From Mesostigma viride (Eukaryota > Streptophyta > Mesostigmatophyceae > Mesostigmatales > Mesostigmataceae): a DNA stretch of 64,000 nucleotides. A program made the translations under genes and the position numbers. The notes beneath the pieces were generated by a model that was not told where the DNA came from, searched no databases, and saw only the letters and a program-made list of their open reading frames with translations. The DNA is taken from assembly GCA_009746045.1 (NCBI GenBank), contig RPFO01000774.1, forward strand, positions 753,657-817,656. The letters run 5' to 3'. Each line of letters starts with the position of its first letter. The first letter of the stretch is position 1. Positions 2,341 to 64,000 of this stretch are shown in pieces.

Positions 2341-5300
2341 AATTTTCTATATCTAGCCATGCGTCCGAGCTCGCGTCTCTTGTCTTCCAGACGGTGGATT
2401 TATACGCCGACGTGGACTCCATGTCCACAGTCGAGCGATTCATTGCCCTCGTGGCCGGCAAGGACGAGGCATTTGTCAAGGCATTCGCCTCGCAGTTGAT
2501 CCCATTCACTGAAAAGAACAAGGGCCACGCGCCGCCCCGCACGTGCTTCAAGCTTCTGCGATGGTCCATTCTCCTCCTGCACAAGTCGCCCCAGACGCTG
2601 CTCTCCTCCAAGGCCGGCTTTGGCCGCCTGGCGTCGGCGCAGGCGTCCCTGCTGACCAAGCTACTCTTTGGCAGCAGCGAACGCTCCCCTGCGCCCACCA
2701 TGCGCGCAATGCGAGCACTCCTCGCCAAGGTGGGCAGCAACCGAGTGAATGCATGAATGCATTGTGTTCAGTAACAACGAAGCATGCGCTTCTGGCCAAG
2801 CTGGGCTGCAAGCAAGTAAATAACTACATCGGCAATCTATCTTCACTGAGTATGATGTGGGCACTCCTGACCAAAGTGGGCAGCAAACATCTACACACTC
2901 GCATGGATGGTAATATCAGATGCCCACCGTGCCCACAGCCATCTGGCCAAGGTGCACAGCCAACAGAAAGAGAATATGTAAGGAGCGCATGTAGGGTCCA
3001 TGTAATAATGTCATGCTTGCCCTTGTAATCCAATCACTGCTCCGATCACTGCTGGTGATCGCATGAACGAAGCATGTGCATACCGCGTGCACAGCCCTTT
3101 GGCATACCCCTTGAGTGTGCTCCCCCCCCCCCCCTACCCCCTACCCCGCCGGCCCACCCCCACGACAGAGTAGTAGGGGCCACTCTCCGCTTGCCCTGCG
3201 TGGCCCTAGTCGCACGGTACTAGTGTTAATTGCGGGTTGGTCGAATCAGGGGCGTGCACTCTGCCAGCTCCCTGCACCATGGCCATGTGTGGGATGGAGG
3301 GATGACTGGTAATTGACTAGCGTGGCAAGGCGCTGGTAGGCAGTCAGCCCCGTGGCACGGTGCTGCTAGTAACCGTACAGCCCCGCCCAGGCCATGGTGC
3401 CAGGCACGGGCAGGTAGCCAATGTTGGCTGTGGGTATGCCTCCCGCACGCACATGTATGCCTTCCCACTCATGCCTCCTTACCTCGGCCGCTGTAGGCGA
3501 TGGGTTCTGTAACTCTGGCCGTGTGCGCTCCCTCGCGCTGGCATCCGCTCCCTCAGGCATGTAAGTAATTATCACTTTGTTCGCTCGCGCTGATATCTTG
3601 TTCCCCCACCCTGGCATCTTCCACCTGTCCACAGGACCCGGCGCTGGAGGCCGGCTACTATGAGGTCGTGCAGGCGTGCGCGTCGGGCAGCACACCTTGG
3701 AGCTGGGAGATGAGCGGCCTGATCGCGGTGCTGCTGGAGCACGTCACGTCGCAGCCAGCAGGGGGGGATGCGGACAAGGCGGCCGATGAGAAGAAGGTGA
3801 GGGTTATCTCTATTCGTCAAACTATTATTCTTTATGGAGGAGAGGAAGGCGGGGGCCATTTCAGTCTGATGGAGAAGGTGGGGCTGGTGGGTGCTGTAGG
3901 AAGGAGTTCCCTGGTTGTGTGCATGCTAGTAGGAGACGAAGGTGGACACTTGAACAATGTTGTGTGCATGCTAGTAGGAGAAGAAGGTGGACACTTGAAC
4001 AATGTTGTGTGCATGCTAGTAGGAGAAGAAGGTGGACACTTTAACAAGTCACTTTTGTGGTTATGTGGAGGAAAAGAAGGTGGACATTTATTTCAGTTGT
4101 CTCGATGGTTATATGGAGGAGAGCACGGGTCCCATGCCCTCTTCCAAAAGGTGGGCATGCGACCCGTGTGTCCCTTCTGGGCATGTAGGGGAGACAAAGG
4201 CGGCCACTTTACAGGTGGCTTCTCGTTCTGCACTCATGATTGAAGGTGAAGAAGGTGGGCATTGCATATTTTTTCTTTATGGCTGCAGTGAGGAGTAGTA
4301 CTTTTTTTTTCGACTAGTATTGCTGATGGTTGGTATCCCTTCCTGCAGCCCCCTAGGATGGCGCATGGTACGAGCCCACCTGTGTAATTTTGCTTCCAAG
4401 AGAGTAAGCGCTCGGGAAACCTGTGCTATTGTTACTCATGCTCTTGATTGTGCACGCTTCTTGCGATGCGCGACGTGGCCCAATCCACGCCCACCAGTGT
4501 CACTGCTTTTCAGGGCATGGCATGTCCTTTCACCAGGCGGTGCGGATCTGTGCCTCCCCTCATCCTGTGGCAATGCCTCCTTCCCCCCCTTGCCCCCGTC
4601 TTGCCCCCTCCCCCTCCTTACCCTGCCCTCTTGCCCACTCCTGCACCCCCTCCCATCTGGCCCCCTGTCCTGCCCCCCTTTGTCCTCGTGGGTTCGCAGG
4701 CCACCTACCTCAACCTCTACTGCAAGGAGGTGCTGAGCGCCCGCACGCAGCCGCCACCGTATGCAACGCGCGCGTTCCACCCGCTGCTGCGCCGGCTGAG
4801 CCATGCCGAGTTTGCCGACCTGGTGCTTCCCGCCGCCACACGCGCACTCAAGCGGTCGCCCGAGCTGGTCATGCGCGCGGTGTCCTCGCTCCTCTCCGCC
4901 ACGCCCCTGGACATGAGCAAGTACGCCGAGGCGCTCGTCCCAGGGACCGTGCAGCTGTGCCGCCACGCGGACGCGGCGCTCCGTGACGATGCGGCCGGGG
5001 TCGCGGGGCAGCTGGCGGCCCAGTGCAGCGACTACGACGCCGTGGCCACCGCGGTGGAGGCCACACAGGCCGTGCTGAAGGGTTCAGAAGGGCGGCTGCA
5101 GCAGCACTACCAGCGTCTGGGCGTGGTGGCCGTGCTACAGGCGTTCTCGCGTGTGCCCAAGGGCAAGGGATGCATCCCCCTTGCGTGCAAGGCGGCCACG
5201 TTCCTCTGCGGCACGTACAAGGAGGAGCCCAACGAGGAGGTCAAGGTGGCAATGCTGGCGGCGATGTCCGCATGGCTCTCACGGGTGCCTGCGGGGGAGG

Positions 5301-8300
5301 TACCGGAGCCCGTGCTGGAGCTGTTTGTGGCGGCGGCCAAGGCGCCGGATGTGCTGCGGCGTGCCATGCTCAAGTGCATGGTGGACACATTGGAGGAGCC
5401 GGAGAGCTGCCCGGGGGTGCGTGTCTGCATGCAGCTTGTGCGGTTAGAGGAGAATCGCCTCGGGGGGGGGGGGGGGGGCAAGATGTGCCCAAGTGATTGG
5501 GCTTGGGGGGAATTTGTCCGGGGAAGATGGGGTACAGGGACAGCTTGCGAGGCTGGGCATTGATTCGGGACTGAGAAATGGTTGTGGGTGGTGGCTGTAG
5601 GAGAACATGTTGACCTGCTGTTGGCACGCGAGGTGGGGTGTAGGAGTCAGGGGGCTTGCTGGGTTGGGATAGGCAAGGTGTCCATGTGTGTGGCAGCCAG
5701 TACGTTGCCACTCGGAACAAGATGGACTTACACATGTTAGCACCACCTGCATGAGGTACCCTCCTGCGCTCCTGCCCTCCTGCCCTGTGGCAACATGGCC
5801 TCATGCCAGCTTCTCCCGATGTCCTTGAGCAGGCTTCGATGGCTTTGCCCACTGGGTTGGTGATGCAGTGCGCGCTTTGTACCTGCAGGGTTCTGCCCTG
5901 CCAAGCAACCTGTTGTGACTTCAACACGTGCATACATGCCTGCCTGTTATCGTGGGCGGTAGGCTATGGTACGTACATGACAAAGACGGAGAAACAATTG
6001 CGTTCTCTCATTGATATAGATGCCCTATCAGGCATGAACATGCGTCGATGTATGGCCATACCCTGGAACCACCGCACAGCCTGGCATAGCCAACTGCTCC
6101 TTACGAACCCCCCATCATCATGATCGGGCATTGCCCCCCAACATCGCACCACACGTTGCCAGGTGTCCAAGCTGACGGACGCGCTCCTGTCCATGCTGCG
6201 CAACGGGGTGGAGCGCGCGCCCTCTCGCGGCGACGCCGTCTACGCGCTGATGCTGCTCGCCCGCACCGCCGCAGTGGCACCGGACGCCCAGGACCGTCTG
6301 GCCAAGGAGAAGGTGTGGCCGCTTGTGCTGCAGAAGGAGTCGGCCGTCTTCAACAGCTCCGTGGTGCGTGGCGAGGCACCGCCATGGCAACATGCCTCAT
6401 GCGTTGCGGTGAATCTTGTGGCAATTTGCGTGGCGAGGCATGTGTCATGGGACCGTGTGTGGGGAGTTGTCGATATGTGTATAGATGCATATTGCCATGG
6501 CAACGTGGTAGGTGTGTTGCCAATGCATGGGCCAAACAGTAGGCTAATTGTCATGATGGCCCCACCTGCCTGTGCTGCAATGTGCAACGACGTTGGGAAA
6601 AATACATGTTCGCTGGGTGGCTTGGGAGCTTCCTTGCCTGGAAAGGAGGTTACAATAGGGTATGCAACGTATGGTATCTCGCACAGTCTGGGCCATCATG
6701 CGGAAGGTTTGCGTCTCTTTTGGGTAGGTCAGCTGCACAACAGTGTCCCTGCATGCTTGGGTTATCTTTCTCATTTTTGACATGGTGGCTACGGGGGTAT
6801 ATACTGTTTGCATCTGCGCTGCTAGCGCCTTGGTTATCATTTTTGTGAGATCAAATTCGACCATGGCGGCTCTGCACGTGCTCACACCCGGCTGGGTACC
6901 CTCACACGCATCCAGAGGCACCGCTCCGGGGATGATTGTCACCTCTGCACCCATGTCGTGGCTGCAGCTGCTGGCCTGTGTGGCTGAGAGGTCTTGGGAT
7001 CCCTGCGTGGGCATTGCGGGTCCCGCCATGCCCTCCTGGTCATCCAATAGCATGCTTTTCCCCACGGAGCTGTCTCACCACCCACAAGTCTTCTCGCCAC
7101 CCACACAATGGTCCTCGCACTTTCATGCCCGTGTGGGGTGCCACCCCTGCATGTCTCCATTCCTCCCCCCCCCATCGTCCATCGCCCACGCGTTGGCCCA
7201 TGCCTTTGTCCATTACCCACAGCCCTTGCCCATCACTCATCGCCCATGCCATCACCCACCGCCCACCAACCATTCCCCGTGCCCATCGGCCCCCCAACCC
7301 CACCCCCGCGGCAGATCTCTCGCCTCTCGCCCACGGAGTGCGTGTCGCTGGCCCAGCTGGTGGAGCTGCTCTTGCACCGTCACCCGTCCCGTGTGGCCGA
7401 ACACCAGGATGCCATCGTGCCGCAGATCGCGGGGTTGTTGGCCCAGTTGCTGCTGCATGCCGCAAAGGACGTGCGCACGGCTGCCGTATCCGTCACGGCC
7501 AAGTGCAACTACCTCTACCCGGCGCTCTCGGATGGGCTGATGTCGTCTCTGGCGGCGCTGATGACGGCCACCGAGCAGAGCGCGGGCAAGAAGGGTGTCA
7601 AGTGCGTGTGAGCGAACGTAGGAGGCTTCCTGGCTGAGTGGGTGGATGCGCGGGTGGGTGGGAAGCAGAGTAAAATATTAGGGAACAGCGGGCGGATGTA
7701 TAAGCAGATATGTGAAACGTGGGGGGCGGCATTGCGCTATGGGGAGGGATGAGGAGAACATAGTTCGGAGCATCCAGATGCCATATTGTTAGCCGTGGAA
7801 ATGGGTGACAGCATTCCTTGGGAAGGGGACCCAGGACACGGAAGGGACCAGGCTGCTCTCAGAGGGGTTTGGTGCCGTCTGCGCGTTTCCCAACATTTCC
7901 ATGATTGACCGGGCGCTACGTTGACTGGGGTCCTCGCGTGTGCGCGTGCCCTGTGCTATATTTAACTACCTCACATTCCGCTTCTGTAGCACACACTCAC
8001 TCGTGTTTGGTTGAGTGGCACCGCTGGCAAGTATGCGCCATGCTTTTCCTGCGGCATGTCACGGACATGTCGTACGGATGACGCCCATGCCTCGGCCGGT
8101 TTGCTTATCTCGCGCTCTTTCTCGGACGTTGATGCCATTCTCCTGGACTCCTATGTTGACGCGTCGGCTTCCTCCAGATCGATGGATGAGAGCGCACAAG
8201 CCGGGCCCTCTTCCGCGGTCCTCTCCCGCGCTTTCCTGGCCTGTGCGCCCCCCGAGCCGTCCCTCGTGTCCGAGGCATGGCCACTTGGCCAGCTGCTGCT

Positions 8301-9178
8301 GCTGGCTCACCGCCGGTGCCTGCGCGGCATGCACTCAGCATCCACCACATGGGTTGCCTTCAGCAACAAGATGGTGGCCAAGGATGCCAACTTTGTGGCC
8401 AGCGTCAAGGCCAGCATGAGCGACATCTGGAAGGTATGCCGGCATCCGGTTGCTGATGCTTGTTCTGCTATGCAAGGAGGTACGCTGGCATCTCATTCCT
8501 GATGCTTCCCTTGAACAGCATTTTGGAGGAGGAGACTTTGCGTTGAATTCCTTCATGGAGCTTCTGTTCTTTGTCTGGAAACAGCCACCTACGGATAGGC
8601 AACGGCTGTGAGGGACCTGGGCCATCCTGTTCCCATTTCCAACGCACTATATTTTGTTTTTTCTGCCATCTGTTTGGGTGGCCAGCGGGGCAGCGCCTCA
8701 TGCTTAGCTTGTAGCACACCCGCGTTAGTGTGGTTTCAGCTGGTGGTAATTGGATCGATTCCGGGGGGGGTTCTGTTTCCAGAATGAGTCCACGCCGATA
8801 CCAGTCGGCAAGGAGCCGTCGGTGTCCTGATACGGGGCACGCTGCTCCAGTATACCCATCCATTAGTACGTTACACACCCGTTCGCCCTTCTGTCACCCA
8901 TTTGTACTCCCTTTCTCTCTCCCTCTCTCCCACTCTCTCTCTCTCTCTCTGCCCGTGACTCCGTCTGGCCACCGCTCCCGCTTCCCCCCTGCCAGGTGGT
9001 GCTGAGTGAGGAGCATGGCCTGCTGAGTCCCAGCGACACGTCCAGGGAGGCGGCACTGGCGTCTGCACGGAGCCTGGCGCGGCTGTACGGCGCCGACGCA
9101 GTCCCTCCGCTGCTGGAGCAGATGGGCCGCCTTCTGGACCCCGCCATGCACCACGCGCTCAGTGACCAAGACATTGAG
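2341..9178 (+). CDS. GCN1: GCN1 N-terminal HEAT region (exons 1-7)
   Basis: These seven exons encode the less conserved N-terminal helical repeats, which in other species contact the ribosome. The first traced exon reads [20 protein letters not shown] and continues in frame through the AG at 2390, so the acceptor is at 2340 rather than 2390. This exon includes the GCN1-typical motif around [12 protein letters not shown]. Exon 3 (239 codons) carries the [13 protein letters not shown] and [17 protein letters not shown] segments characteristic of the family. The exon 5 to exon 6 join requires the donor at 7602 (aa/gtgcgt) to keep frame. These exons are the most diverged part of the protein. Confidence 0.85.
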
Positions 9179-12100
9179 GTGAGTGGGCCAAGCGTGACGG
9201 TTTTCCGAGGGGTCGGTGTCTGGTCCTGCCGCTTGCGAGATGCATGGCTCAGGTCAACACTTTTCTTTTCGTACAAACAGTGCACCGCCTTAGATTGGGT
9301 AGCCCAGATGGGGGCGGGGGATGCACACAGCGTGGATGCGAGCGCATGACGGGCACCGCACAGATGCAAGCACACGCACGTGCTGGGGGCACAGACTTGG
9401 ATCTGGGGTGCTACCATGCCAGTGATCTGTTTGGAAGGGCTTTCAAAGCCTGGCTGTTGGCGCAACTGGTGCTGGTTCTCCCATGTCAGTCGTTAAGGTC
9501 ATAGTTGCTGGCATGGAATTTCTAATGGGCAGTGCGGCATTGCCTCCAGCGCTGGGCATGTTGAGAATTTCTCGGCGTGTATGACAATCATATTCTTGAC
9601 GCTGTTCCATCAGCTGGTACACCGCCCAGCGTATGAGGACGGTGGGCAGTGTACATGCATCGCATTGGTATGACACATAATACTTACACTTGTCAGGCGT
9701 GTGAGTACGTGGACGGTGGGACGAGAGGGGGGGTCCGAGGGGTGGGACCGGAAGGAAAAGTTGAGGCTCGTTTTCCGCTCTGCAACTGCTCTGCTGCTTG
9801 CTGGTAGTCTCGGCATTGTTAGATGTGGCGCTAGCATACATCTGTGGATGTCTACTGCTAGAATGGACCTGCACGTCCTAATATGTCAGTATGCACGCTG
9901 CCCCCACACCCCATCTTTCACGTGTTGACAAAGGACAGGTCTTCAACACGCCGCCGGGCGTCCTCAGCTCCGAGGTGGGCGTCTATAAGGGCGAGGTGGT
10001 GGCCAACAAGAACCAGCGGCGCGCGCGTGGCCGTGTGCGCATGGACTACTACGACGCCGACGATGAGCCAGTGACCAAGGGGGGGGCGGCCGCTGCGCCA
10101 GCCAAGGCCGGGGCAGCAGCCCCCGCGGCGGCGGCAGCGGCAGCAAAGAAACCGGCGACGTCATCGGCGGCATCTGCGGGTGCTGCCGCGGGCAAGAAGG
10201 GTGAGCAGCGGTGGCATGGAAAATGTGCACGAGGCAGGGAGGGGGGGGAAGGATGAGCGAAATGTAGGTGGGGGGGGAGGAAAGGGTACTTGACCAAGCT
10301 GAATGTGGTGGGGGAGGAAAGGGTAATTGAACAGTTGCAGGTGGGGGGGAAGGAAAGGTGGTGGAGCAAGCAGTAGGTGAGGGGGGAGGAAAGGGTGGTG
10401 GGGCAAGTTGTGGGTATTGGGGGAGGAAAGGGTACTTGACCCAAGTTGCAGGTGGGGGGGGGGAGAAAGGTGGTGGAGCAAGTTGTGGGTATTGGGGGAG
10501 GAAAGTGTACTTGACCCAGTTGTAGGGGTTGGGGGAGGAAAGTGTACTTGACCAAGTTGTAGGGGTTGGGGGAGGAAAGTGCACTTGACCAAGTTGTAGG
10601 GGTTGGGGGAGGAAAGTGCACTTGACCAAGTTGTAGGGGTTGGGGGAGGAAAGTGCACTTGACCAAGTTGTAGGGGTTGGGGGAGGAAAGTGCACTTGAC
10701 CAAGTTGTGGTGGTTGGGGGAGGAAAGTGTACTTGACCCAAGTTGTAGGGGTTGGGGGAGGAAAGTGCACTTGACCAAGTTGTAGGGGTTGGGGGAGGAA
10801 AGTGCACTTGACCAAGTTGTAGGGGTTGGGGGAGGAAAGTGCACTTGACCAAGTTGTAGGGGTTGGGGGAGGAAAGTGCACTTGACCAAGTTGTAGGGGT
10901 TGGGGGAGGAAAGTGCACTTGACCAAGTTGTAGGGGTTGGGGGAGGAAAGTGCACTTGACCAAGTTGTAGGGGTTGGGGGAGGAAAGTGCACTTGACCAA
11001 GTTGTAGGGGTTGGGGGAGGAAAGTGCACTTGACCAAGTTGTAGGGGTTGGGGGAGGAAAGTGCACTTGACCAAGTTGTAGGGGTTGGGGGAGGAAAGTG
11101 CACTTGACCAAGTTGTAGGGGTTGGGGGAGGAAAGTGCACTTGACCAAGTTGTAGGGGTTGGGGGAGGAAAGTGCACTTGACCAAGTTGTAGTGGTTGGG
11201 GGAGGAAAGTGTACTTGACCCAAGTTGTAGGGGTTGGGGGAGGAAAGTGCACTTGACCAAGTTGTAGGGGTTGGGGGAGGAAAGTGCACTTGACCAAGTT
11301 GTAGGGGTTGGGGGAGGAAAGTGCACTTGACCAAGTTGTAGGGGTTGGGGGAGGAAAGTGCACTTGACCAAGTTGTAGGGGTTGGGGGAGGAAAGTGCAC
11401 TTGACCAAGTTGTAGGGGTTGGGGGAGGAAAGTGTACTTGACCAAGTTGTAGGGGTTGGGGGAGGAAAGTGCACTTGACCAAGTTGTAGGGGTTGGGGGA
11501 GGAAAGTGCACTTGACCAAGTTGTAGGGGTTGGGGGAGGAAAGTGTACTTGACCAAGTTGTAGGGGTTGGGGGAGGAAAGTGCACTTGACCAAGTTGTAG
11601 GGGTTGGGGGAGGAAAGTGCACTTGACCAAGGTGTAGGGGTTGGGGGAGGAAAGTGCACTTGACCAAGTTGTAGGGGTTGGGGGAGGAAAGTGCACTTGA
11701 CCAAGTTGTAGGGGTTGGGGGAGGAAAGTGCACTTGACCAAGTTGTAGGGGTTGGGGGAGGAAAGTGCACTTGACCAAGTTGTAGGGGTTGGGGGAGGAA
11801 AGTGCACTTGACCAAGTTGTAGGGGCTGGGGGAGGAAAGTGCACTTGACCAAGTTGTAGGGGTTGGGGGAGGAAAGTGTACTTGACCAAGTTGTAGGGGT
11901 TGGGGGAGGAAAGTGCACTTGACCAAGTTGTAGGGGTTGGGGGAGGAAAGTGCACTTGACCAAGTTGTAGGGGTTGGGGGAGGAAAGTGCACTTGACCAA
12001 GTTGTAGGGGTTGGGGGAGGAAAGTGCACTTGACCAAGTTGTAGGGGTTGGGGGAGGAAAGTGCACTTGACCAAGTTGTAGGGGTTGGGGGAGGAAAGTG

Positions 12101-15100
12101 CACTTGACCAAGTTGTAGGGGTTGGGGGAGGAAAGTGCACTTGACCAAGTTGTAGGGGTTGGGGGAGGAAAGTGCACTTGACCAAGTTGTAGGGGTTGGG
12201 GGAGGAAAGTGCACTTGACCAAGTTGTAGGGGTTGGGGGAGGAAAGTGCACTTGACCAAGTTGTAGGGGTTGGGGGAGGAAAGTGCACTTGACCAAGTTG
12301 TAGGGGTTGGGGGAGGAAAGTGCACTTGACCAAGTTGTAGGGGTTGGGGGAGGAAAGTGCACTTGACCAAGTTGTAGGGGTTGGGGGAGGAAAGTGCACT
12401 TGACCAAGTTGTAGGGGTTGGGGGAGGAAAGTGCACTTGACCAAGTTGTAGGGGTTGGGGGAGGAAAGTGCACTTGACCAAGTTGTAGGTGGGGGAAACG
12501 AAAGGGTTATTGGGCAAGTTGCAGGTGGGGGGGAGCAAAGGTGGTGGAGCAAGCAGTAGGTGGGGAAGCGGAGGAAAGGGCGGTGGAGCAAGTTGTAGCT
12601 GTTGGGCGTAGGGGGCCGGCACTGGGGCGGCTGGTCATGGAATGGTAGCCTTGGTGACGGGTGCCGGGTGCTCAATTTATTTCCTGCTGTAGACTTGACA
12701 TGGTTGCTTTGCAAAGCTATAGCCCCTAGGCATGGCTGTGCCCTTCTGCTCCGTCATGGGCTTGTTACGTGCGTATCGCAGGCGCACATTCTCGCGTTGG
12801 ATGTGTTTCGTTCGATGTGGGGGGGCATGACATCGTCGCTGCCACCATACACGCCGGCAAACTACTGCCAGGAGAACTACGACTGCTAGCAGAGAACTGC
12901 AGGCCGCAATCTCAGCTGCCACGTGGCATGGAAAGAGCAGGGAGAGGCTTGGCAGACCATGTGGTGGTATGTGTGTCCTCCCCCCCATCCCTGCAGGTTG
13001 TAATTGCAGTGGCTGCGACATGACCACATTGTGTGTCACAAGTGCCATGTGTGAGCAGCACCCACTGTGAGCCTCGGAAGGGGAGGCCCTGCCCATCTGG
13101 ATACAGTGACATGAGTGTGTGTGAGGCCAGGCAGGCTTTGATCAAGAACGACTGAGTTCCCCGATAAAAACAGCTGGGTGCAAAGCCTCGGATGTTAATG
13201 AGGGCTTTCACGCGCAGCAATCCTTGGCAAGGCGCTGACAGTGATCCTTGACAAGGTGTGGTTCATCATCGTTCGGCCGCGCACACCCCTACAGGCCCCA
13301 CTCCGGGCAAGGGCAAGCCAGACCCCCGCGAAGCTGAGCTGGCGGCGGAGGAGGCGGTGCGCGCGCGCGTGTGGCGCATTGGCCGTGACCTGGCACTGGC
13401 TCTGGACGCGCTGGCTGCCGCCGCGAGGGGGGGACCAGACGGCGTGCGGCATCACCTGCCAGAGATGGTAAGTAAGATAGTAGTAGGGTCAGCAACAGGC
13501 ATTACCTGCCAGAAATGGTGTTTGGGATAGTTACGATCAGTGCGCTGCTAGAATTTCAACGCAAGATTAGGGAAAGCAATGGGCATTACCTGCTGGACTT
13601 GGTGAGTAGGTAATGCATGGGATAGTCATTCCTGCCGTCCTGCTCGGCGTGGTGAATGTTTGAACGCAAGATCAGGGAAAGCAATGGGCATTACCTGCTG
13701 GACTTGGTGAGTAGGTCATGCATGGGATAGTCATTCCTGCCGTCCTGCTCGGCGTGGTGAATGGCGATGGCAGGTGCTTTCCCTTGTGCCTGCATGGTAG
13801 AATGTATGGCGGGTGTGTTTATGCAGGTGCACGCCAAAGTGCCGGTGCATGGTACCTGTGGTGGGGCAGTGCCATTGGGACAGTGGGCTGTCGCCTAGCT
13901 GAGGGTTATCTATGCCCAGTACAGAATGTTTAAAGAGGACCATGCGATGTTTCGGCACGCAAGCGTGTCTTTAGATCTATCACAGCCTCTGTACTGGCGC
14001 TTGGTCCCATGACTCCCACCCATGCATTCTTTATCTCGAGATGTCTGACTTCGGCTTTTGATAACCCACGCCTTTACTTTGCCCGCCGCACTCGCTCCTG
14101 CCAATTGCCGTCATCCCACCACTCCATTCCTTCCTCCCCCTTTTCCCCCCAGGCCTCGCTGGTGTACCCCTTCATGTCCTCCCCCCTCGTCGCCGTTGAG
14201 GCCGCGCAATGCCTCGAGGGCCTTGCCTGCGCGTTGCCGTCACAGCTACGGCCCTCGGCCAGGGGGGTGGCGGCGGCTCTGCGTGTGGCAGCGATCACCT
14301 CGGCCGACGCGCGCGAGGGTCGCTGCAGCAAGGAGCAGTACTTGGCGGCTGTGGAGAGCAGCGTGGTGGAGGGCGCGGTGAACACCCTGTGGAGGCAGGT
14401 GGAGGCCAGGGGGGCCCTGGAGCCGACGTGCTTCTGCTTCTGTTTCCCGGTGCGTGGCGCCTCGTGCTTCGCTGGTTCACCTGTTTCTCTTCGCTGGTTC
14501 TCAGATCGGGGCGTCTTGATCAGTTTGTGTGCCTCGGTGCCGTATTCGGAGATGTCGTGCGTAGCTGCGGTGTCTGGTTGGTCGTGTCGGGGATGTATCG
14601 TGAGAATGAGACCACTTTTGTAGCTGCCGTGTCCGCCGCAGCTGTGGTCATGGTCGTGCGTCCTGCGTCATGATGGGTGGGAGGAAAGCTTGGGAGGAGC
14701 AAATGTCTGGTTTATGCATCATCCGTCTCACGAGTGTGTCATGTTTCACCCTAGACCGTGCTCCTAGACCGTGTGCTGGCTGGCACACGGCACGCATGCC
14801 CCACAGCATGAGCACGTGCCTTTTGGGTCACTATCTCCTCTTGCGACTGAAATCCGTCCTCTGCTCCGGCCCAATGCCAACAATGCCAAGGATGCGCTTG
14901 TCAGCTGGCCCACCGGTTGGCAGGGGTTTGCCACAACAGATGGGTAAGCCACCTCCGTGCAATCGAGGCCTTGTGGGTCATGTTATGTTTTGTCGTCCGT
15001 TCTCCCTGGGTGGGTTGGTGCACCATTTGAAGTCTGTGCTCCATGTGGTTGCTGTGGCCTTGCTCTGCTCGCGATGTGGGTAGTTTGGTTCCACTCCCCT

Positions 15101-18100
15101 TTGTCTCACACTCAAACGTGGAGGGGCACTTCGAGGGGCAAACTTGTCTGAATGGCTATTATGGCACCTTATGCTCTCCCCTACCCTTCTATGCTCTGCA
15201 CTCCCCTGCTCCCGCTCCCCTGCATCGCCACATGTCGCGATCAGGTGCTGGAGCTGGTGATGCGTGCGCCCAAGCACACGCACGCCTCGGAGCATGTGCT
15301 GGCGGTCGTCAAGAAACACGCGGCACCGGGCACACCGGTCCCGCGCGTGGCCATGATCCACGTATGTGCCATGCTTTGCATGTGTCTAGTGTGTTGCCAT
15401 ACTAGGTGAAATGTCTGTGAGTGCCGCATCAGGCCACTAGCGCTGTGCGCTCTGCAGCATGATCCATGTTCGTGGGTGCTGGATTGCTTGTGTGGTTGCA
15501 AGAGCCGCACATGTGCTGGCTAGTGATGTGCGTGCTGCCTTTCGTGCCTTTCAGTGCACGGTTGCATGCGGTGTTTTCTATCTGGTGTTACAAGTGCATT
15601 CTGCTAGGCTTCACGAGGCCCCTCCCCCACACACCACCCCCACCCCCTCACCCCATTTTCCTTTTTTTTCTTTTCTTTCCCGCTTTTCCTTTTTTTTTTT
15701 GGCCAGTGTGCTGTCTCCAGAGACCTGGATACTGTATCTCAGGGCGGATCATCTAGCAATTTTTGAGTACAGGCTTCGTGTCGAGTATAGACTTTGCGGT
15801 GAAGAATGTGTGGAAGCCATTCTTGGCTTGGGCTGGAAATGTGCCGTTGCGTTTCGGTAGACTGTGCACGAATGCTGCTTACGTTGGTCCTTACCTTTGT
15901 TGGCATGGGGCTCCATGCACCCCCGTCCACCTGCCACGCGTGTGTGTGCAGGCGCTCTACCACGTCCTCTCGTACATGCCCTCGGCGCAAGCCCAGGTGC
16001 TGCCGGTGCTGCAGGAGCTGTGCCGGGGCCTGGATGCCTCCAGCTTGGAGGCCGCGCTGGCTGGTCTGCTGTATGATCAGGCGCTTGTGCGCAGCTCTTG
16101 CCTGCAGGTGGGGGTCCACATGAGTCTGTGGGTGGATTCCAAGCATGTTCACTATCGCAGGTGGGCACCATCACATCCACTTGGCCGGCCTGACAAGCCG
16201 ATGCGCCACCCCTCGGTGTGGCCAATATTATCGGTGTGATCGAGTCGATAGCGATGGATGTGGCTCGGCCAGGGGTATGATGTAGGGTGGCTACATCATA
16301 ATGTCATCTGCGGTTGTATCTAAGCCAGGAAAGAATCTAAGCAAAGAGCATGTAAGAAGGTGCATCGTCCGGATGCATAGTCGACGAGATCGGCGGGCTT
16401 TGATTGTAAATATGTAATAATAGAATATGTAATATGCGGGTGCTGTGTCGTAGGGGCCCATGCGGGGATTTGGCAGTCTACTTGCCACGGCACATGCTCC
16501 GTCATGGTCCCCTCTTGTTCCCTCCTTGCTGTTGCTTTGCGTAGCGCCAGAGCATGGGACAGTTGTAACCCATCCTTCCAGCGGCTCGGCCAAACACATT
16601 ATTAGCAGTATCACTTTTTCATCGCCATGGAATGCATGGATTGTCTGGTAGAAATGGGTGTGCACCCACCATGGCTCGAGACATGCGCTTGCCTAGGCGA
16701 ATTGCCCCTCAGCTTCTGCAGCTGATCTCTGTGACATCACCTGCATGACAACAGCTCTGAGCGATGATCGAGTACTGCTTGCCTCACTTTTTCGGGCCTT
16801 CACCGTTGAAACGCTCCCGCATCAGCCGTCCTTCATGGCTAGGTACACTTTGCCAACAAAACTTCACCCCCACCGCCTGCCCGTGGAGTCACTTGTTAAC
16901 CCCACGTCCTAATCCCGCTCCCCACCCGCGTGTTCTCCGTGCTGCAGGCATGCAAGTGCGTGCCCCCGTTGGCGGCGGGCGAGGTGCCGGAGGATGCGCG
17001 CGTGTCGGCGCTACTGTGGATGGCGTGCTACGACAGCAACGAGCAAAACATGGAGCACGCGGACGAGGTGGGTCCCTGCGTAGCGGGTCCTTGCCTAGCA
17101 TGCGCATGGGAGCATGGCACAGGACAAGGCACGATCTCAGCCCTGCATCATCTGAAGTTATCTCTAAGGACCCATGATGCCGTAATCCTACGGTCATGGC
17201 TGCTTACCTACAGGTGCTTGGCAACCAGCAACTTGTCCACTCAGGACATCACGAAGTTGTTTGTTGGGAACTAGTCTTGCCCTTGCACACAAGCGCAGGA
17301 AAATTCCCTGGGAATCGCGTTCTGTAAAGGTCCTCTACAGCCGATCAGATCTGATGGTTCTTCTCACGCATGCCTCGAGCCTCGAAGGGGAGAAGGGAAG
17401 CATACCACTGCATGGGCCAGTCATGCGTGTGTAGCCAGCCGTACACACTCGTGACCACGCCCGTAGTAGTGCCCCACCCAGAATCTCAGAAGTCCCCAAG
17501 TGTCCCATCTTCAGTATACCTTGTGGAATATTCAGTATACCTTGTGGTATATTCAGTATACCTTGTGGTATATTCAGTATACCTTGTGGTATATTCAGTA
17601 TACCTTGTGGTATATTCAGTATACCTTGTGGTATATTCAGTATACCTTGTGGTAGCTCCTGATGGAGACTGTAATCGGCGACAAGGGCGATGGCTCATCA
17701 GCCTCATCCGGTATTCCTGCTCTTGAATGACACCTGCGAAACTACCAGGGATCAGTTTTTACATGTGCATTTGGCAGTCGTGACATTCTCAGCACGCGAG
17801 GCACTCACCAGCTGTGATTGTAATGAGCAATGGGACCTATCCATATTTCGTGGTAATGCTTGTGCACTCATTCTCGCCGCAAGTCCCCCCCCCCCATGCA
17901 CACCCCACCACCATCACCACCACCTGGTGCCATCTGCCAGGTGTACGACATGTACGGCCACGACTTGAGCAGCGCGACTACAGCTGCACTTGTCACGCTG
18001 CTGTCCAACCAGCATGGGAGTGTTAGGCTGGCGGCCGCAAAGGGACTTGCTGCTGCCATGGAGGACTACCCAGAGACCGCGCAGGTGGGTGGGTGGGTGG

Positions 18101-21100
18101 GCCTGCCCAGCTTAGTGAGCTTGGAGTGACAGACCTTCCAAGCAAACTCGTAGGCGAGTACACGGAGGCTATGTGGGGTGACCTCATATCCGTGTCTGAA
18201 GGGGACGGATCCCCTAGTTCCGCACAGGCAGAGCCAGACGCCCTAGTTCCAGCGCACAGGCAGAGACGGACGCCCTAGTTCCAGCACACAGGCAGAGACG
18301 GGCACCCTAGGGATGGCTGTGTATACGCGGTGGCTCTCCGCTTGCTACCAGGGGACGGTGTGCCAAGGGTTGCCCCTCGTGTTGATCCGTGTCTTTCACA
18401 GAACTTGCCTTGGTGGCTGGTGGTCACTTGTCAGGGGTGCATGACTTTGCCATTGAGGTGTGTGCATCATGGTCAGGAGTGTGCTGCGGGAATCTAATAG
18501 AATGTTTGCCATATGCTGGCGTACACGGGCACGCTTCCATGCAGGAGTCGCTGCAAGCCCTGTTCAAGTGCTACCGCGACTGCCTGCCCAAGGCACTCCC
18601 GCCCGCCCCCAAGCCCGCCCCACTTGCCCCCCTCGCTGGCAAGGGTGGCCCCATCGTCATCAGCATTGAGACAGGGCCCCCGCAGCCCCCCCCACCTGAC
18701 AAGTGGGAGGGCCGCGAGGGTGTCGCGCTGGCGCTTCGTGAGTGCGTGCGCGCGGTGACCCCCGCGGACCTGCCCGGCGTCATCACCTTCCTCATCTCGA
18801 CCGCTCTCTCCGACGGCAACGCGGACGTGCGCGAGCACATGGTGCAGGCGGGCGTCTCACTGATCGACGCCTGTGGTAGGGACCACGTGGGCACGCTGCT
18901 GCCCATCTTCGAACGCTTCCTGGAGAAGAAGGTGCGGATGCGAGCGCGGATTATGCCTGTACAACACAATACTCAGCACACAACAATGAAACTTGGTGTG
19001 TGCTTCACCAGCGATGCCAATGTACACAGAGGTGGGCGGGTGCAGCTGTAGCGGCACGTTGATTGGTCGCAGCGTACCTTGATTGGGGGCAACCAGACCA
19101 TGCCATGCCATGCCATGCCATGCCATGCCATGCCATGCCATGCCATGCCATGCCACGCCACGCCACGCCACGCCACGCCACGCCACGCCACGCCACGCCA
19201 CGCCACGCCACGCCACGCCACGCCACGCCACGCCACGCCACGCCACGCCACGCCACGCCACGCCACGCCACGCCACGCCACGCCACGCCACGCCACGTCA
19301 CGCATGGTGAGGGGTACGCAGCCGATGCACCTGGGTAGGGTGAAGCATGCTTCGAGTGTGCCACCCTGGCAGTACACCTGGCAAAGGGGGAGCACCGTGG
19401 CGCGTACCATGCCTGTGCTGCGCCATGCCTGGGAGGTATCCATCTGCTTTCGGACCTCAGCTCGTTCTGTGCCCTTGTTGTATTATGTCCTGCTTTCTGA
19501 CAGCACCTGGGTCATTGCCACTCCTCGCGTTTCTCCCTCTCTCGTGCTGCCCATCAGCCTTGCGGGGCTAACTGACTGATGTGTTGTCAAATCTTGGCCT
19601 GTACTTGCGCGTGCACGCACACATGGACATGCTATGCTGCCAATGGCCCAAAATTTGCCGCAGGAGGTGGTGTGTGAAGAGACCTACGACTTGGTGCGCG
19701 AGGGGGTGGTCGTGTTCCTTGGCGCGTCCGCCAAGCACCTCGCGCCCACCGACCCCAAGGTTCTCGTCATCGTGGAACGGCTGCTAGAAGTGCTCAACAC
19801 GCCATCAGAGGCCGTCCAGCGCGCGGTCTCCGACTGCCTGGTCCCGCTGATGTCTTCGTTTAAGGCAGAGCCGGACACCATCGTGGGCCGCCTGCTGGAG
19901 CGCGTGCTCAAGGGGGAAAAGTACGCGGTGCGGCGAGGGGCCGCGTTCGGGCTGGGCGGGGTCATCAAGGGGCTGGGCATGGCCGCGCTCAGCCAGTGTG
20001 GAGTCATGGACAAGCTCAAGGCGGCGGTGGAGGACAAGTGGGTCGCGCGCAGTCCATGCCTGTTGGTGGTGGTGATCATGGCACGCTTGGTCAGAGGACA
20101 GAGGTTTGGCGGTCGTGATATGCTCGCACTGGTGGTTGCAGCTGGTTTCAGTGGTGGTGGCGCTCATGGCGGCGGTGGTGGCATACCGGGCGATGCTGGT
20201 TGGAGGCTGACTGGGTGGCGCATGTGATGTGCTGGTGCTTTAGTTGTCGTGGTTGTCACGGGATATGCCTGCTGGTTGTTGTAGTCGATGTGGTTGCAGC
20301 TGGCGTTGTTGGTGGTGGTGGCATGTCTGGCGATGCTGGTTGGAGGACATTTGGGCGCCACGTGGGCGATGCACTGTCACGGTTTGTGCTGTGCGAGAGG
20401 TCCTTGATGATGCCTGTGACGTATCAAAGTAGAGGTTCGACAGGCATAGTTACTTTCCATCCGTGCCTTCCTTGATACCTAGCACGTAGAGGAGGGTTCA
20501 AAGGCTCGACTTGGTTAATGAAAAAAGCATACAAAATGTCGAGTTGTCCTTTTCCCGTGGTGCGAAGTGCATTTACCTTTCACCCCCTGCTGCCCTACAC
20601 CTGTCTACTGCCGGCTTTCCTTTGGTCCCCTTGATGCCGTGGAACCACGCTTGCCTGCTCTCCCTCGCCCTACCTTGTCTTTGCCTGCTCTCCCTCGCCC
20701 CACCTTGTCCTTGCCTGCTCTCCCTCGCCCTACCTTGTCCTTGCCTGCTCTCCCTCGCCCCACCTTGTCCTTGCCTGCTCTCCCTCGCCCCACCTTGTCC
20801 TTGCCTGCTCTCCCTCGCCCCACCTTGTCCTTGCCTGCTCTCCCTCGCCCCACCTTGTCCTTGCCTGCTCTCCCTCGCCCCACCTTGTCCTTGCCTGCTC
20901 TCCCTCGCCCCACCTTGTCCTTGCCTGCTCTCCCTCGCCCCACCTTGTCCTTGCCTGCTCTCCCTCGCCCCACCTTGTCCTTGCCTGCTCTCCCTCGCCC
21001 CACCTTGTCCTTGCCTGCTCTCCCTCGCCCCACCTTGTCCTTGCCTGCTCTCCCTCGCCCCACCTTGTCCTTGCCTGCTCTCCCTCGCCCCACCTTGTCC

Positions 21101-24349: not shown

Positions 24350-24384
<35 letters not shown>

Positions 24385-29940: not shown

Positions 29941-29982
<42 letters not shown>

Positions 29983-32709: not shown

Positions 32710-32755
<46 letters not shown>

Positions 32756-57740: not shown

Positions 57741-60700
57741 ATGCCGGAGGGAGGCTACGTCCCACGCTCTCGTGCCGCTCAGAAAGAGCCGCCGGCGGGT
57801 TATGTATTCATTTGCAACAACGATACCATGAAAGAGAATTTCGACAGGCAGCTATTTGGTAAGGTTATCCTCGTTTGGCACTGGAAAGCCTTTTTTTTTG
57901 TATGTTTCACCGAGAATGCCGCTTCTGCCTAATTTAGCCGTTGGAATGATCGTTAAGTGCCCGATGCCCTCCATCTTTTGTGTAATTCGAACTTACTTAG
58001 ATTGTCAATGTCACAAGGTGCTCGCTATAGAGGTGGCGCCTAGGCGCGGCACCCCGGCAGCGCCTGCGTGCTTCACGCTCCATTTTCTATGCATTGACAA
58101 AAAGCAGGGCTGTAACATAGCCAGCCGAGAACCATAACCGCAGTAAGCAAGAGGCATTTCTGTTGCCATGGATTGCTCGGCGTCCGTTGCATGGCGGAAT
58201 CGGTGGTTGAACCGTCAGCCACATTGACCATCTGGACGCTGCTGTGCGCTGCTGCCAACTGCAGGACTGGGGATCACGTACGCGGCATCTGTCAGCCTCA
58301 TCTATCCAGGGCTTCCTCTCTTCTTGTACAATTTCTCCACACGGATGCTCCATGGCGTGTTTGAGGTAAGCGTGTGCACATCACCGAACTGCATTCAATT
58401 CTCCACCCCAAGGAGGACACCTATGCCTCGAGCCGACTATGCTAGATCTCACAACCTATATGAAGTCGGTCCTCCCTTCGTTGCTTCTCCATTCATTTCT
58501 GAATGTGCGTGAGTGTTTGCATGTTTGAATGCTCCTCCTGCCTCGCCCAGGCCACGTCCCAGGGTGGCCTGAACCTGGAGCCCGACGCGTGGTCTGGCAG
58601 CAAGGCCCAAGCATTGTCCCCTTACCCCGCACAGGTTCGCCAGCGGCTGTTTGCCAACTGCCGCCCCATCCCCGCCGGCCAGTTCCGCCCCTGCCTGCGC
58701 TGCTTTGGACCCAGCAAATCCAAGTTCAGCCTCGAACTCAACCAGAGGGAGGTGTGTGCGACCCTGGGCGCGTGGCTGTGTGTGTTCTTTCGAGTACTGC
58801 TCTCGCAAACGTCACACACATGCCTTGTCCCTTTTTGGCCATGCAAAACCAAGGGCTGTGTGCGGGCTGGTCCAGCAGAGAGTGCAGCGTGCGCAATGTA
58901 TTCTAACATTCCGCAAACGACTTGCCTCAAGTTGCCTTGCTGGCTGAAGTGTGCGCATGGGCGTGCACTTTCCGTTGGCTGATTTAAGCACAGGTGTCAG
59001 TGTGCCTTGTGTGTGGTGACGCCTTACAGGTGTCAGTGTGCCTTGTGTGTGGTGAAGCCTTGCAGGTGTCAGTGTGCCTTGTGTGTGGTGAAGCCTGGCT
59101 CGTTTGATTTTACACCGCCAAATGCATGCCTCGTTGTTGCAGCTGCACACCCCCTTACAGCATTGCCATCTGCCCCATTCCCATTGGCCCATGGCGGCGG
59201 GACTCCTCAAGTAGCACATCGCCACCTGTCCCACCAGCGGGGTACTGCTTCCTCCCAGCTCATGGAGGCACCGTCGTGCCATGGCATGGCATGGCATGGC
59301 ATGGCGGGGCGGGGCGGGGCGGGGCGGGGCGGGCGGGCGGGGCGGGGTGGGCGGGGCGGGGCGGGGCGGGGTGGGGCGGGGCGGGCGGGGCGGGCGGGCG
59401 GGGCGGGGCGGGGCGGGGCGGGGCGGGCGGGGCGGGCGGGCGGGGCGGGGCGGCGGGGGCGGGCGGGGCGGGGCGGGCGGGGCGGGCGGGGCGGGGCGGG
59501 GCGGGCGGGGCGGGGCGGGGCGGGCGCGGGGCGGGGCGGGCGGGCGGGGCGGGGCGGGCGGGGCGGGCGGGGCGGGGCGGGGCGGGGCGGGGGTGGGGGC
59601 GGGTGGGGGGGGGGGTGGGGGGGGGGTGGGGTGGGGGGGTGGGGTGGGGTGGGGGTGGGTGGGTGGGGGGGGGTGGGGTGGGTGGGTGGGGGGGTGGGGT
59701 GGGTGGGTGGGTGGGGTGGGTGGGTGGGGTGGGTGGGGTGGGTGGGTGGGGTGGGTGGGTGGGGTGGGGTGGGTGGGGTGGGGTGGGGTGGGGTGGGGTG
59801 GGTGGGGTGGGTGGGGTGGGGTGGGTGGGGTGGGGGTGGGTGGGTGGGTGGGGGGGTGGGGGGGGGGGGGGGGGGGGATGGGAACACCTAGATGCCTCCT
59901 TGCCTTGGCCATCCTGCGGATATCAAGGCCACGCGGGTGGGATGGCATAGGGTTGTGGCCTGTGTTCCACTGTGGGAAGCTGGGGTACCAGTACGAGCCA
60001 GTAGGAATAGCAGTGTCCACTAGAACCACCCTGGCCGGCGGAGTCGCCCTGTAGGTACTGGTACGGGCCCTACTGCTACCTGTGCCGCAAGCTGAGGTGA
60101 CGGGAAGAAGCTGTACCGGGTGCCAAGCCTGGCAGTAGGAAGCTGTTGCTGCGCTTGGCCACCACAGATGCCACGACATGCATGCCACCACGCGCATACA
60201 TGTCGTCCCAGCCACCACTGCCATGCTTGTGCTTGTTATGGAATGGGCGAAGTCCCTTGGCCTTCGCGGACACTGTGGCAACGCCACCATCCTCCTACCG
60301 GACCGGCTCTCCTCATCGCGCTTCCCCACAAACCATGCCCTCCCGCATGCGCTTCCCCACGAAGCACGCTCTCCCGCGCTTCGGTTGGGCCGCCCCATGC
60401 CATCCCCTCCTGACAATCAGCCCCGTTGGCCCATCCCAGCAGACAGGATCCTTACGCCTTGTTCCCTCGTGTCACACGCAAGATGCCGCGTTCTCAAGAT
60501 ACCTCACGCACTTGACCTTGTGAGCGCGGGTATCAACACCCTTGGTTTGTCTCACCTACGACGATTCACATTTGTCATCATGTAGTGCACTTCATCTCAT
60601 GCGCTCCTTCCCGCGCAGGTCAAGGGCCTCCTCGCCCTCTTCCAGGTGGCCTACGACGATGCCACTGGTCGTTTGGTGGACCCATGCGGCGCCGCACACC

Positions 60701-61281
60701 CTAGCGGGGCGCCACCTGGCGGAGCCGCATCAGGCCAACGGATCATCTGGGGGCCACCCGCCGCGGCTGCCAAGCCCAACCGAAGTAACCAACGGGCCAC
60801 AGGCAACGGGGCCTCCACCACATCCACCACGTCCACATCCACCCCCACCCCCACCACCACATGGAGCACTGCCAACGCAGCCACATGGCCACCGCAGGAC
60901 GCCTCGGCGTCGTCTTCGGTGATGACGTCAGCGGCATCCTTAGGGGTGTCAGACCCAGGGACCCAGGGGCACAGGGGGGAGACAGATGCGGTCGCGCAGG
61001 CGCCAGCTGGCAGCGGGGCCAAAGTTGCGGGGCGCAGCGGTCAGCCAGTGCACATGCAGCTGGGGCCCGGAGCTGGAGAGGAGCCGTGGGCAGGACTCCT
61101 AAGTTCTGTGGCCAGCGCCGACGGTGCACCGTTGGGGGGAACGGGTGTGGCTGTTCCTGGCGCTGGGCATGTGGCCACTGGCGCGGCTGGTCGGGGCGGT
61201 GCTGCGGCTGCCAGTAGTTCCTGGCCGGGGATGGCAATGCCAGCTGCATCCATGCGTAGGTCCCGGGGGGTGGTTTCCTGA
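57741..61281 (+). CDS. DCD-domain protein (4 exons, about 360 aa)
   Basis: The Development and Cell Death domain is a plant-lineage module of stress and cell-death proteins (the N-rich protein group among others). Exons are 57741-57858, 58265-58365, 58551-58751 and 60619-61281, joining in frame with phases 1, 0, 0. The DCD spans roughly residues 19-150: GYVFICNNDTMKENFDRQLFG at its start, LPLFLYNFSTRMLHGVFEAT in the middle, then a basic/Phe segment with FRPCLRCFGPSKSKFSLELN and VKGLLALFQ at its end. The C-terminal 200 residues are Gly/Ala/Ser/Thr-rich without a recognised domain. The ATG at 57741 is the first in frame. The biochemical function of DCD proteins is largely unknown. The last exon could be spliced further. 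Confidence 0.88.
58991..59098. repeat. 36-bp tandem repeat in DCD gene intron 3
   Basis: Three copies of a 36-bp unit contain caggtgtcagtgtgccttgt and gtgtggtgaagcctt. Each unit opens with a CAG/GTGT splice-like motif. Confidence 0.88.
59279..59877. repeat. 600-bp G-rich simple satellite in DCD gene intron 3
   Basis: GGCAT repeats (59284-59304) lead into GGGGC/GGGC repeats to about 59590. GGGGT/GGGT repeats follow to about 59850, then a G homopolymer to 59877. The + strand is almost free of A and C in the last third, so G-quadruplexes are possible. The long Gly- or Pro-rich frames on both strands are artefacts. Confidence 0.95.
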
Positions 61282-61448
61282 TCTATGACATCTGCCGTGA
61301 AAATCGTGCCTCTGTTGCTGCTCATGCTAAGTGATTGTTGCTGCCTGCTGTGAGGTGTTGGTTACGGCAAAATGTGTTGCTGCACTGATTTCGAATCGGC
61401 AGCGGTTTTGAGTGCTGTCTCTGGCCGTTGTGGTGGTTGTGTGTATTT

Positions 61449-62349: not shown

Positions 62350-64000
62350 ATGGACGATGGCACGCGCGTGGCAGGTATGGACCTGGGCAATATCAAGTGT
62401 GTGCTGGCGCTGGCCGACACTCAGCGCGTCTGCGTGTTACGCCATGGAGATGATGTGCCCTCACACCCTGGTGGGGTAGGGGCACCCCCGCTGTCTGGTC
62501 AAGGGGAGCCGCCTGGCGCGGGTGGCGCGACCGATGCCTGCCAGGTGTCCACCGCCGGCACCAGTTTGTCTGGCATCAAGCGGCTGCTGGGTCGCGGGTT
62601 CTTGGATCCGATGGTCCAGCGCGAGCTGTCGCACATGCCCTGCTTTGTGCAGGTGAGGGTTGACCCGCACACGCCCTGCGTGTGCAGGTGAGGGCAGGCG
62701 GGTGCAGGTGGCTGGCATGAGGATGGGGCGTCTTGTGGTGCTGATGCCATGCTGGTGCTTGTCACGTGGAGGATGCTATGCAATTGTCTGCCAGTTTGGT
62801 GTGTCACATTGTGACTGCGCCCTGCTTATCTGTGCCCATTGTTGTCGTGAGGCCAGGGGTCACCATCCAGACTGTGGTCCTTATCCTAACGCACGCCTGG
62901 TGTGCACCCCTAGTGCCCTACGCCTTGTACCCATGCCCACTCTGCGCCTAGTCACCCATCGGCGGCTCTTCATGGGTATTGACACGCGTGCACAATGGTG
63001 CAGCCCATCCCTCCCCCTCCTCCACCCCCTGGTGGCCCTACACAAACACAATGCCCCCCCACCCCCCCATGCTCACCCCCCAACCTCCATGCAATGCCTG
63101 GTTGAAACGCCCCTCCCCAGCCGGGCACTGACGGCATGCCACAGGTGCTGTCCCACACCGCCATCGGAGAGCCTCGCCTTTTCACCCCCCGTGAGCTGCT
63201 GGCGTCTTCACTCGCGTCGCTCAAGGAGATGGCCGAACGCCATGGTGACAAACGCCAGGGGGGCGAGGGCACGACGGAGAGCCACTGCTGCCACAGCAGC
63301 CCACTCACACGGAACGATGCTGCCGGCGACACGGCCAAGCTTGCCTTGTCACATGATAGTGACGGGTGCCAGCGGTTGGCCCTGGCCGGCTGCGTGCTTT
63401 CCTGCCCGGTCTACTTCACGGACGCGCAGCGGAGGGAACTTCTGGCCGCCGCGTCACTGGCGCAGCTGCCGGCCCCTCGCCTGCTGCATGATACGAGCGC
63501 AGCCGTGCTGGCATACGCGGCATCGGTGTCCCCCGCCGAGTTACTGCCGGCGTATGGCACCGACGCGCGCCACCTGGTGTTTGTGGACATGGGGCGCACG
63601 AGCACGCAGGTGGGGAAGGGAAGGGGGTCACTATATATACAATATAGTAATCTGATTAATAACACCACATACACAAGCGGTGTTTGTGGGCATGGGACGC
63701 ACGTGCACGCAGGTGGGGCAGGGAAGGGGGTCACTAAGATTTAGTTATTGGACCTGTGCCTTTGTGTCACTGGGTTTACTACAGAATCGAATGTGAGTAC
63801 ACAATCGTGTGTAACTGGAGGCCCGGACGACTGGTGGTGTTCATGCCCACGCGCATGAATGCCCACACGAGTGAATGGGGTCCTCGTACCCCCTGGCATG
63901 TAAACCAGCACTCGTCCCCAGTAGCCAGTGGCAAGCGCGTACCAGCCTGTGGTGTGCCAGGCCAGCACAGACCTCTTGAGCAACACAGCAAGCCCGTGGG
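62350..64000 (+). CDS. HSP110-type HSP70 homologue, 5' part (cut by window end)
   Basis: HSP110 proteins are nucleotide-exchange factors and holdases for HSP70. Exon 1 (62350-62652) gives MDDGTRVAGMDLGNIKCVLA, the first ATPase loop in its HSP110-like form, and GIKRLLGRGFLDPMVQREL. Exon 2 (63145-63609) gives GEPRLFTPRELLASSLASLK, CVLSCPVYFTDAQRRELLAA, LLHDTSAAVLAYA and VFVDMGRTSTQ, the equivalent of phosphate-binding loop 2. These fit the HSPA4/HSP110 branch better than canonical HSP70. Odd points: the usual segment after the first strand (the TPS/FGDKQR region) is replaced by Gly/Pro-rich sequence, and exon 2 has a 40-residue Ser/Thr/His insertion before ALAGCVLSCPV. The remaining exons lie beyond 64000. 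Confidence 0.88.
62640..62715 (+). repeat. Exon-end echo in HSP110 intron 1
   Basis: The exon 1 end tgctttgtgcag followed by gtgaggg is repeated 36 bp downstream as ccctgcgtgtgcaggtgagg (62674-62694). A weaker third copy, gcgggtgcaggtggc, lies near 62697-62711. Confidence 0.7.
63579..63736 (+). repeat. Duplicated exon 2 end plus donor in HSP110 intron 2
   Basis: The last 30 bases of exon 2 and the first 25 of the intron (gtgtttgtggacatggggcg ... acgcag, gtggggaaggg) recur about 100 bp downstream at 63680-63736. Identity is about 90 percent, and the copy includes the intact CAG/GTGGGG donor and the agggggtcacta segment. The second copy is outside the reading frame of the gene. Confidence 0.9.
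63737..64000. other. HSP110 intron 2, continuing beyond the window
   Basis: No acceptor-exon pair matching the next HSP110 segment was found before the window ends. A short inverted-looking segment with gcccacgcgcatgaatgcc lies near 63845-63863. Confidence 0.4.

Follow-up and report, generated by a model that had tools for sequence, protein, structure and literature searches.

In a 64,000-nucleotide stretch of the Mesostigma viride genome (contig RPFO01000774.1, positions 753,657 to 817,656; hereafter the window), between roughly a quarter and a third of 35 introns contain intron-specific, same-orientation copies of the end of their own upstream exon. These copies, here called echoes, are real, and in some introns they form a ladder downstream of the donor. 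They are best read, with a probability of roughly 55%, as the remains of recurrent short direct duplications that span an exon edge, are silenced by splicing and then decay. The window is a single stretch of a 440 Mb assembly of 2243 contigs, and it was selected because echoes had been noticed there. Its 35 introns comprise 30 from GCN1, three from a DCD-domain gene and two from an HSP110-like gene, the second of which (H2) is cut by the window end. The three genes are as follows.

2421..35000, + strand: GCN1 gene, 31 exons and 30 introns (G1-G30)
57741..61282, + strand: DCD-domain gene, introns D1-D3; the joined exons match Dev_Cell_Death at 126/126 positions
62350..64000, + strand: HSP110/HSP70-like gene, introns H1 and H2; the HSP70 domain lies across H1

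When the last 30 exon bases are used as a probe, the own intron is the best match of all introns compared in 8/35 cases (G1, G9, G16, G17, G21, G30, H1 and H2). For G28, one of 26 other introns matches equally well. The same probe scores above dinucleotide-shuffled sequence in 9/35 introns (p<=0.05). Sliding 30-mers with a downstream copy peak at the donor. Those that end at -30, -20 and -10 have a copy in 0/34, 3/35 and 3/35 introns, and those that end at 0, +10 and +20 have one in 9/35, 11/35 and 10/35. There are 21 exon-suffix matches that include no donor base and score at least 9, whereas the other introns predict 1.0. GT follows 14 of these 21 matches, compared with 36/280 matches in the null (score of at least 7). 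A strict junction match, judged against 71-72 control introns, is present in 11/35 window introns, so the majority are without one. The exon-end probe finds no echo in D1-D3.

The echoes are directional and are concentrated at the donor. The reverse-complement exon-end probe scores only 6-11 in all 35 introns, and 8/29 non-array direct repeats in the window span a donor, compared with 0/14 inverted repeats. In strict tests against a larger control pool, matches are found at 0/34 acceptors, 0/35 reverse-complement junctions and 1/34 exon interiors. Exon-interior windows in the window genes match in 5/326 cases. A low-complexity filter lowers the number of donor-edge repeats in the window from 8 to 6 (that of G21 is removed and that of G25 is counted as interior).

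Chance, or a GC-rich composition common to exons and introns, is scarcely credible as the source of these matches. The excess of exon-suffix matches, the 54/58 identity of the copy in H2 and a rank test in other genes (below) all argue against it, as do G1, G9, G17, G21 and G28 individually. It does fit a few introns: in G2, G6, G25 and G29 the exon part is within the chance range. The matches in G2 are short and purine-rich, and 5/24 other introns match equally; the G6 copy covers the intron start only (-2..+28). An earlier note on this DNA had reported degenerate exon-end copies in at least ten introns of two genes. This stands for G1, G9, G17, G21, G28, H1 and H2, while G2, G6 and G25 are weak or not confirmed. 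G16 and G30, which were listed as junction copies, do carry a copied exon part, but the best copy in G16 is exon-only and that in G30 lacks the GT. That the copies share the orientation of the exon, are specific to it and need no introner-like dispersed element is borne out: the matches are to the own exon, not to other introns. The echoes are listed below, with source intervals counted from the exon/intron junction.

2786..2821, + strand: G1 echo 1, source -15..+21, with CT in place of the donor GT (G1 donor at 2730)
2855..2886, + strand: G1 echo 2, source -21..+11, 27/32 identical
2943..2975, + strand: G1 echo 3, source -9..+21
13498..13540, + strand: G9 echo 1, source -20..+25 (donor at 13468)
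13582..13608, + strand: G9 echo 2, repeated at 13687-13713 within a 105-bp two-copy tandem repeat
20162..20181, + strand: G16 exon-only echo, source -24..-4, 18/20 identical (donor at 20038)
21556..21832, + strand: G17 ladder of six exon-end echoes, junctions at +30, +77, +132, +190, +220 and +270 (donor at 21538)
24607..24650, + strand: G21 echo 1, junction at +77 (donor at 24548)
24679..24726, + strand: G21 echo 2, junction at +151
24761..24800, + strand: G21 echo 3, junction at +242
28447-28474 and 28524-28538, + strand: two weak G25 echoes, exon part not significant
31000..31041, + strand: G28 echo 1, source -19..+25 (donor at 30933)
31205..31240, + strand: G28 echo 2, source -14..+23
33433..33447, + strand: G30 exon-end echo without GT, exon-only, 14/15 identical (donor at 33294)
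62668..62694, + strand: H1 echo 1, junction at +35, with a shorter echo whose junction is at 62708 (donor at 62653)
63679..63736, + strand: H2 echo, the freshest copy, source -34..+24, 54/58 identical (donor at 63610)

The clearest cases are the ladders of G1, G9, G17, G21 and G28 and the single H2 copy. The junctions of the G1 ladder are at +71, +146 and +222. The 105-bp two-copy repeat that holds echoes 2 and 3 of G9 begins downstream of the donor. Ungapped copies take 2-34 bases from the exon and 1-30 from the intron, and a gapped alignment of G21 extends further. The exon part of the echoes is approximately 70-100% identical to its source, and in the junction-anchored set identity is at background by about -25 and +20. 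Ranked by exon-suffix score, the first echo comes out on top in 4/7 ladders. The H2 copy has sharp ends at -34 and +24 and begins at +69, after a 45-nt spacer. This spacer is non-homologous to the DNA that follows (p=0.34), and the copy does not have the form of a plain tandem repeat. A common echo period of 75 nt is rejected, as it is present in G1, G21 and G25 but absent from G9, G17, H1 and H2.

Echoes are also found in other genes of the genome. The additional DNA consists of 172 kb of flanking sequence and seven stretches of 10 kb that surround exons with a helicase domain. Gene models there come from a simple trained gene finder, which recovers 30/35 window introns exactly on its own training sequence. 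With boundaries as predicted, 38 introns are kept: 28 from helicase genes, five from an ATP-synthase-gamma-like gene (identified by eye), four from an unnamed gene and one from the HSP110-like gene. At the helicase loci, 28/48 predicted introns are kept, and all five of stretch L032 and those with doubtful boundaries are dropped by eye. In the flanks, 10/39 predicted introns are kept and the remainder are mostly in retroelement-like or unsupported frames, again as judged by eye; two of the 39 are flagged at the junction.

Among the 38 introns, the own intron ranks among the best 5% of introns for 8/38 donors (P=0.0005) and 6/38 acceptors (P=0.011). By the same ranking, exon-interior windows at -30, -60 and -90 reach the top 5% in 1/37, 3/32 and 1/20 cases. 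Strict reverse-complement matches are found in 0/38. The new genes contain 35 non-array direct repeats, of which five are donor-edge (in four introns), six are acceptor-edge (in three introns, all in stretch L030), 14 are intron-interior and 10 are other. These 10 include the H2 echo again, donor-edge copies in a dropped intron of stretch L028 (donor at approximately 258, reverse strand) and a pair of L030 repeats with an exon-interior part (below). Inverted repeats are at curated exon edges in 0/7 cases, compared with 11/35 for direct repeats.

Ladder alignments are seen in L028, L029 and L030. The richest case seen is L030 (G000:C954:139001-149000, reverse strand), which by eye contains an SNF2-type gene. 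Three of its introns have acceptor-side ladders of the exon start, and other introns have donor echoes. The feature is therefore an exon-edge echo and not a donor-only one, and the donor-specific process proposed earlier is set aside. First-come splicing, considered as a cause of donor/acceptor asymmetry, rested on the window acceptors and was dropped after the L030 ladders were found.

The echoes are in direct orientation, specific to their own exon, present in several copies in some introns, found in unrelated genes and located at both exon edges, with the acceptor copies mainly in one gene. In the proposed mechanism, tens of bases that span an exon edge would be duplicated directly and land mostly 30-300 nt away. 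Slippage or template switching, as in ordinary local duplication, may be the mutational event. Under exon definition, splicing would then use the site that borders the whole exon, and the stub copy would leave with the intron. This choice of site would make the copies tolerable, and a stub of some tens of exon bases could be carried either downstream of a donor or upstream of an acceptor. Over time the copies would decay, while the exon original cannot drift; for this reason, exon-edge pairs would probably stay visible longer than intron-internal pairs. Local duplication together with use of the whole-exon splice site explains the orientation, the own-exon specificity, the ladders, the decay and the presence of echoes at both edges. 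Former coding repeats are rejected as an origin, since echo offsets are a multiple of three in only 5/32 cases.

Whether exon edges exceed intron interiors depends on the treatment of tandem arrays, which make up 22% of intron bases. With arrays counted, the junction does not differ clearly from the interior of the same intron (Wilcoxon p=0.21, n=34). With arrays masked, it does (Wilcoxon p=0.0018, n=29). A neutral simulation of local duplication with a constrained exon, run unmasked with uniform duplication and short units, reproduces the shape of the observed profile (low at -30, climbing at the donor and level inside the intron). The binomial tests use events grouped by hand: in the window, 8 at edges and 3 in interiors; in the new genes, 7 at edges and 6 in interiors. 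When intronic arrays are counted as interior events, which gives approximately 36 events, the window has P=0.0005, or 0.03 with doubled visibility.

Several results weigh against local duplication as a complete account. With arrays masked, 13/30 introns have a junction match, compared with 0.138 per comparable interior triple (P=7.5e-5, or P=0.046 with doubled visibility); this masked test of the neutral model leaves out 5/35 window introns. None of 240 simulated sets at matched interior rate reaches the observed junction rate or ratio. Among all 480 simulated sets, two reach the rate and none the ratio, and in a 48-set pilot the junction/interior ratio is at most 3.3, versus 4.6 observed. A homology-driven (seed) model of gain and loss produces no such excess, although its interior rate is too low for the matched test. 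The edge excess in the non-array class appears to go beyond neutral expectation and is not covered by the proposed mechanism. In addition, 0/26 intronic tandem-array loci span an exon edge or begin within 72 nt of a donor, and a uniform process would not predict array-free edges.

The results from other genes add to these points. The earlier note had expected exon interiors to match less often than exon ends. This holds in the window, but in the other 38 introns strict donor junction matches (5/38) are barely above strict exon-interior matches (3/37), and the rank test alone separates the two. Strict acceptor matches are found in 4/38 new introns, three of the four from one gene, and acceptor echoes are absent from the window (exon-start windows match in 0/34 introns). 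Two L030 repeats involve the exon interior (approximately -66..-35 and +28..+53). In two small sets, splice motifs look better preserved than neutral decay would leave them: in 11 hand-picked long echoes the GT is retained at 21/22 bases versus 127/165 for the exon part, and CAG precedes the exon-start copy in 8/9 L030 acceptor echoes, as judged by eye.

Because the non-array excess and the array-free edges are left over by local duplication, a process targeted to exon edges is kept as a bolder but rather unlikely reading. Exon edges would be preferred sources for local copying, and a process tied to splice sites or transcription would repeatedly write 40-60 nt into introns at both donors and acceptors, so that introns would accumulate decayed copies of the edges of their own exons. 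A dedicated junction-targeting mechanism is possible. Specific forms of it, in which a preferred source of approximately 45-60 nt is set by stalled replication, by R-loops at the G-rich intron start or by the footprint of an RNA bound at the splice site, are doubtful. They are consistent with the non-array excess over neutral models, with the short reach of the identity on either side of the junction and with the exclusively direct orientation. In 13 introns the left edges are within -2..-34 while the echo offsets range over 35-190 nt, which also favours a fixed source, but this test presumes simple tandem units and relies on a hand-made list of echoes. The GC skew along window introns is +0.32 in the first 50 nt and between -0.36 and -0.41 over the last 100 nt. 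The G-skew of the first 50 nt is stronger in echo introns (0.46 versus 0.26 in others; p=0.065 over the first 100 nt). The acceptor ladders, by contrast, sit toward intron 3' ends, which are C-rich in the window, so a model of G-rich R-loops would not cover them. The lack of a clear excess when arrays are counted and the extension of some L030 sources into the exon interior also speak against edge targeting.

The retained splice motifs could instead reflect selection, with echoes kept, for example, because they bind U1 and so prevent premature polyadenylation, or because they serve in alternative or recursive splicing. This is quite improbable. The GT is kept in 23/32 listed echoes, as the earlier note had indicated, and in 10/32 it is accompanied by a score within 1 bit of the real donor, which would suit selection, as would the well-kept motifs of the long echoes and the L030 acceptors. 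However, GT retention in both the exon-anchored set and the full list is approximately the level expected from 80-85% identity. Strong decoy donors are not clearly more frequent in echo introns, where the first 400 nt hold on average 0.86 sites that equal or exceed the score of the own donor, versus 0.76 in others; the surplus of decoys proposed earlier is not supported. Nor would selection on a splice motif alone account for 15-40 copied bases of the own exon. Given how few offsets are multiples of three, splicing at echo donors would usually change the reading frame. The suggestion that echoes lengthen introns also finds no support. Echo copies account for 728/27,938 intron bases (approximately 2.6%) and so are not the main cause of intron length, and the median length is 738 in echo introns and 684 in others (p=0.21).

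Each ladder would be a natural splice-site competition, with similar sites tens of bases apart, one on a whole exon and the others on stubs. RNA reads over such introns would reveal the weight of exon context relative to motif strength. Experiments with duplicated splice sites were reportedly carried out by Reed and Maniatis (1986). If the edge excess is true genome-wide, it would be a source of intron sequence besides transposons and minisatellites.

The splice models in the window are checked by the GCN1 frame, as the joined exons form a single open frame of 2660 aa, and by the complete DCD domain across D1-D3. The DCD domain also suggests a host of plant or algal type. The GCN1 3' end contains HEAT_GCN1_C domains, and a GCN1 exon matches one 2898-residue PDB chain in sequence. 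With the last GCN1 exon as protein query, no homologue is found at E<=0.001 among 7996 candidates scored, and one viral scan and one genome-contig scan find no relative. Most of GCN1 intron 8 is a 37-bp minisatellite of approximately 60 copies (10273-12489). The prediction for the HSP110/HSP70-like gene runs on into flank stretch L009, and the end of H2 is outside the window.

Between GCN1 and an inverted-repeat element is an intronless open-frame region without a Pfam match (36144-37243). By eye, similar peptides are present in flank predictions, and this is probably the frame of a repeat family. The element itself (41594-51480) is approximately 9.9 kb between near-identical inverted repeats (125-nt and 57-nt arms, 98%) and is probably a young terminal-inverted-repeat (TIR) element. 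It contains satellite arrays, including an 82-bp array at 44122-46366, and a 906-aa open frame without a Pfam match. The flanks (L009-L026) appear gene-poor, and the gene-finder frames there include, by eye, reverse-transcriptase-like pieces of retroelements.

Introner elements are similar sequences dispersed over many introns, including those of algae. Echoes resemble them as repeats in algal introns. Introners share sequence among introns, whereas echoes match their own exon, and neither the own-intron probe nor the exon-suffix counts show a shared dispersed sequence. Intronic minisatellites are also direct repeats within introns, and many are present in this window. Echoes differ in being degenerate, mostly separated by spacers and low in number within each intron, and none of the intronic array loci has contiguous high-identity units over an exon edge. 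In UBC and VCX3A, introns are embedded in tandem repeats with dual-specific splice sites that act as both 5' and 3' sites (PMC10809524). There too the repeat units bear splice sites, but they are gene units with working sites, while echoes are mostly intronic and decayed and their sites putative.

Intron gain by tandem duplication of an AGGT-bearing segment, in which the new intron arises between the two copies, has been reported for individual cases (PMC3443670, PMC2891723, PMC3629103). Like the echoes, it involves local direct duplication that touches splice-site sequence in genes. Echoes could by extension be relics of intron birth, in which a duplicated coding segment turned into intron, but this is very improbable. 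The donor and acceptor regions of the same intron are not copies of each other: exon ends compared with the last 400 nt of their own intron (18 introns) have a mean z of -0.02, and next-exon starts compared with the first 600 nt (34 introns) have a mean z of -0.09. Tandem-duplication gain makes a new intron, whereas echoes are partial exon-edge copies inside existing ones. The potato RdRp case is a further report of such gain, in which one duplication across an intron-exon boundary gave a new intron (PMC4974935). The duplication crosses the boundary as the L030 acceptor ladders do, but it happened once, whereas for the echoes no extra intron is modelled and the copies are several and decayed. 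Judged by listed titles and the opening lines of abstracts, no paper describes exon-edge echoes as a class, a negative that carries little weight. Of the systems compared, the echoes agree with local exon-edge duplication, both in their direct orientation and in their specificity to the own exon.

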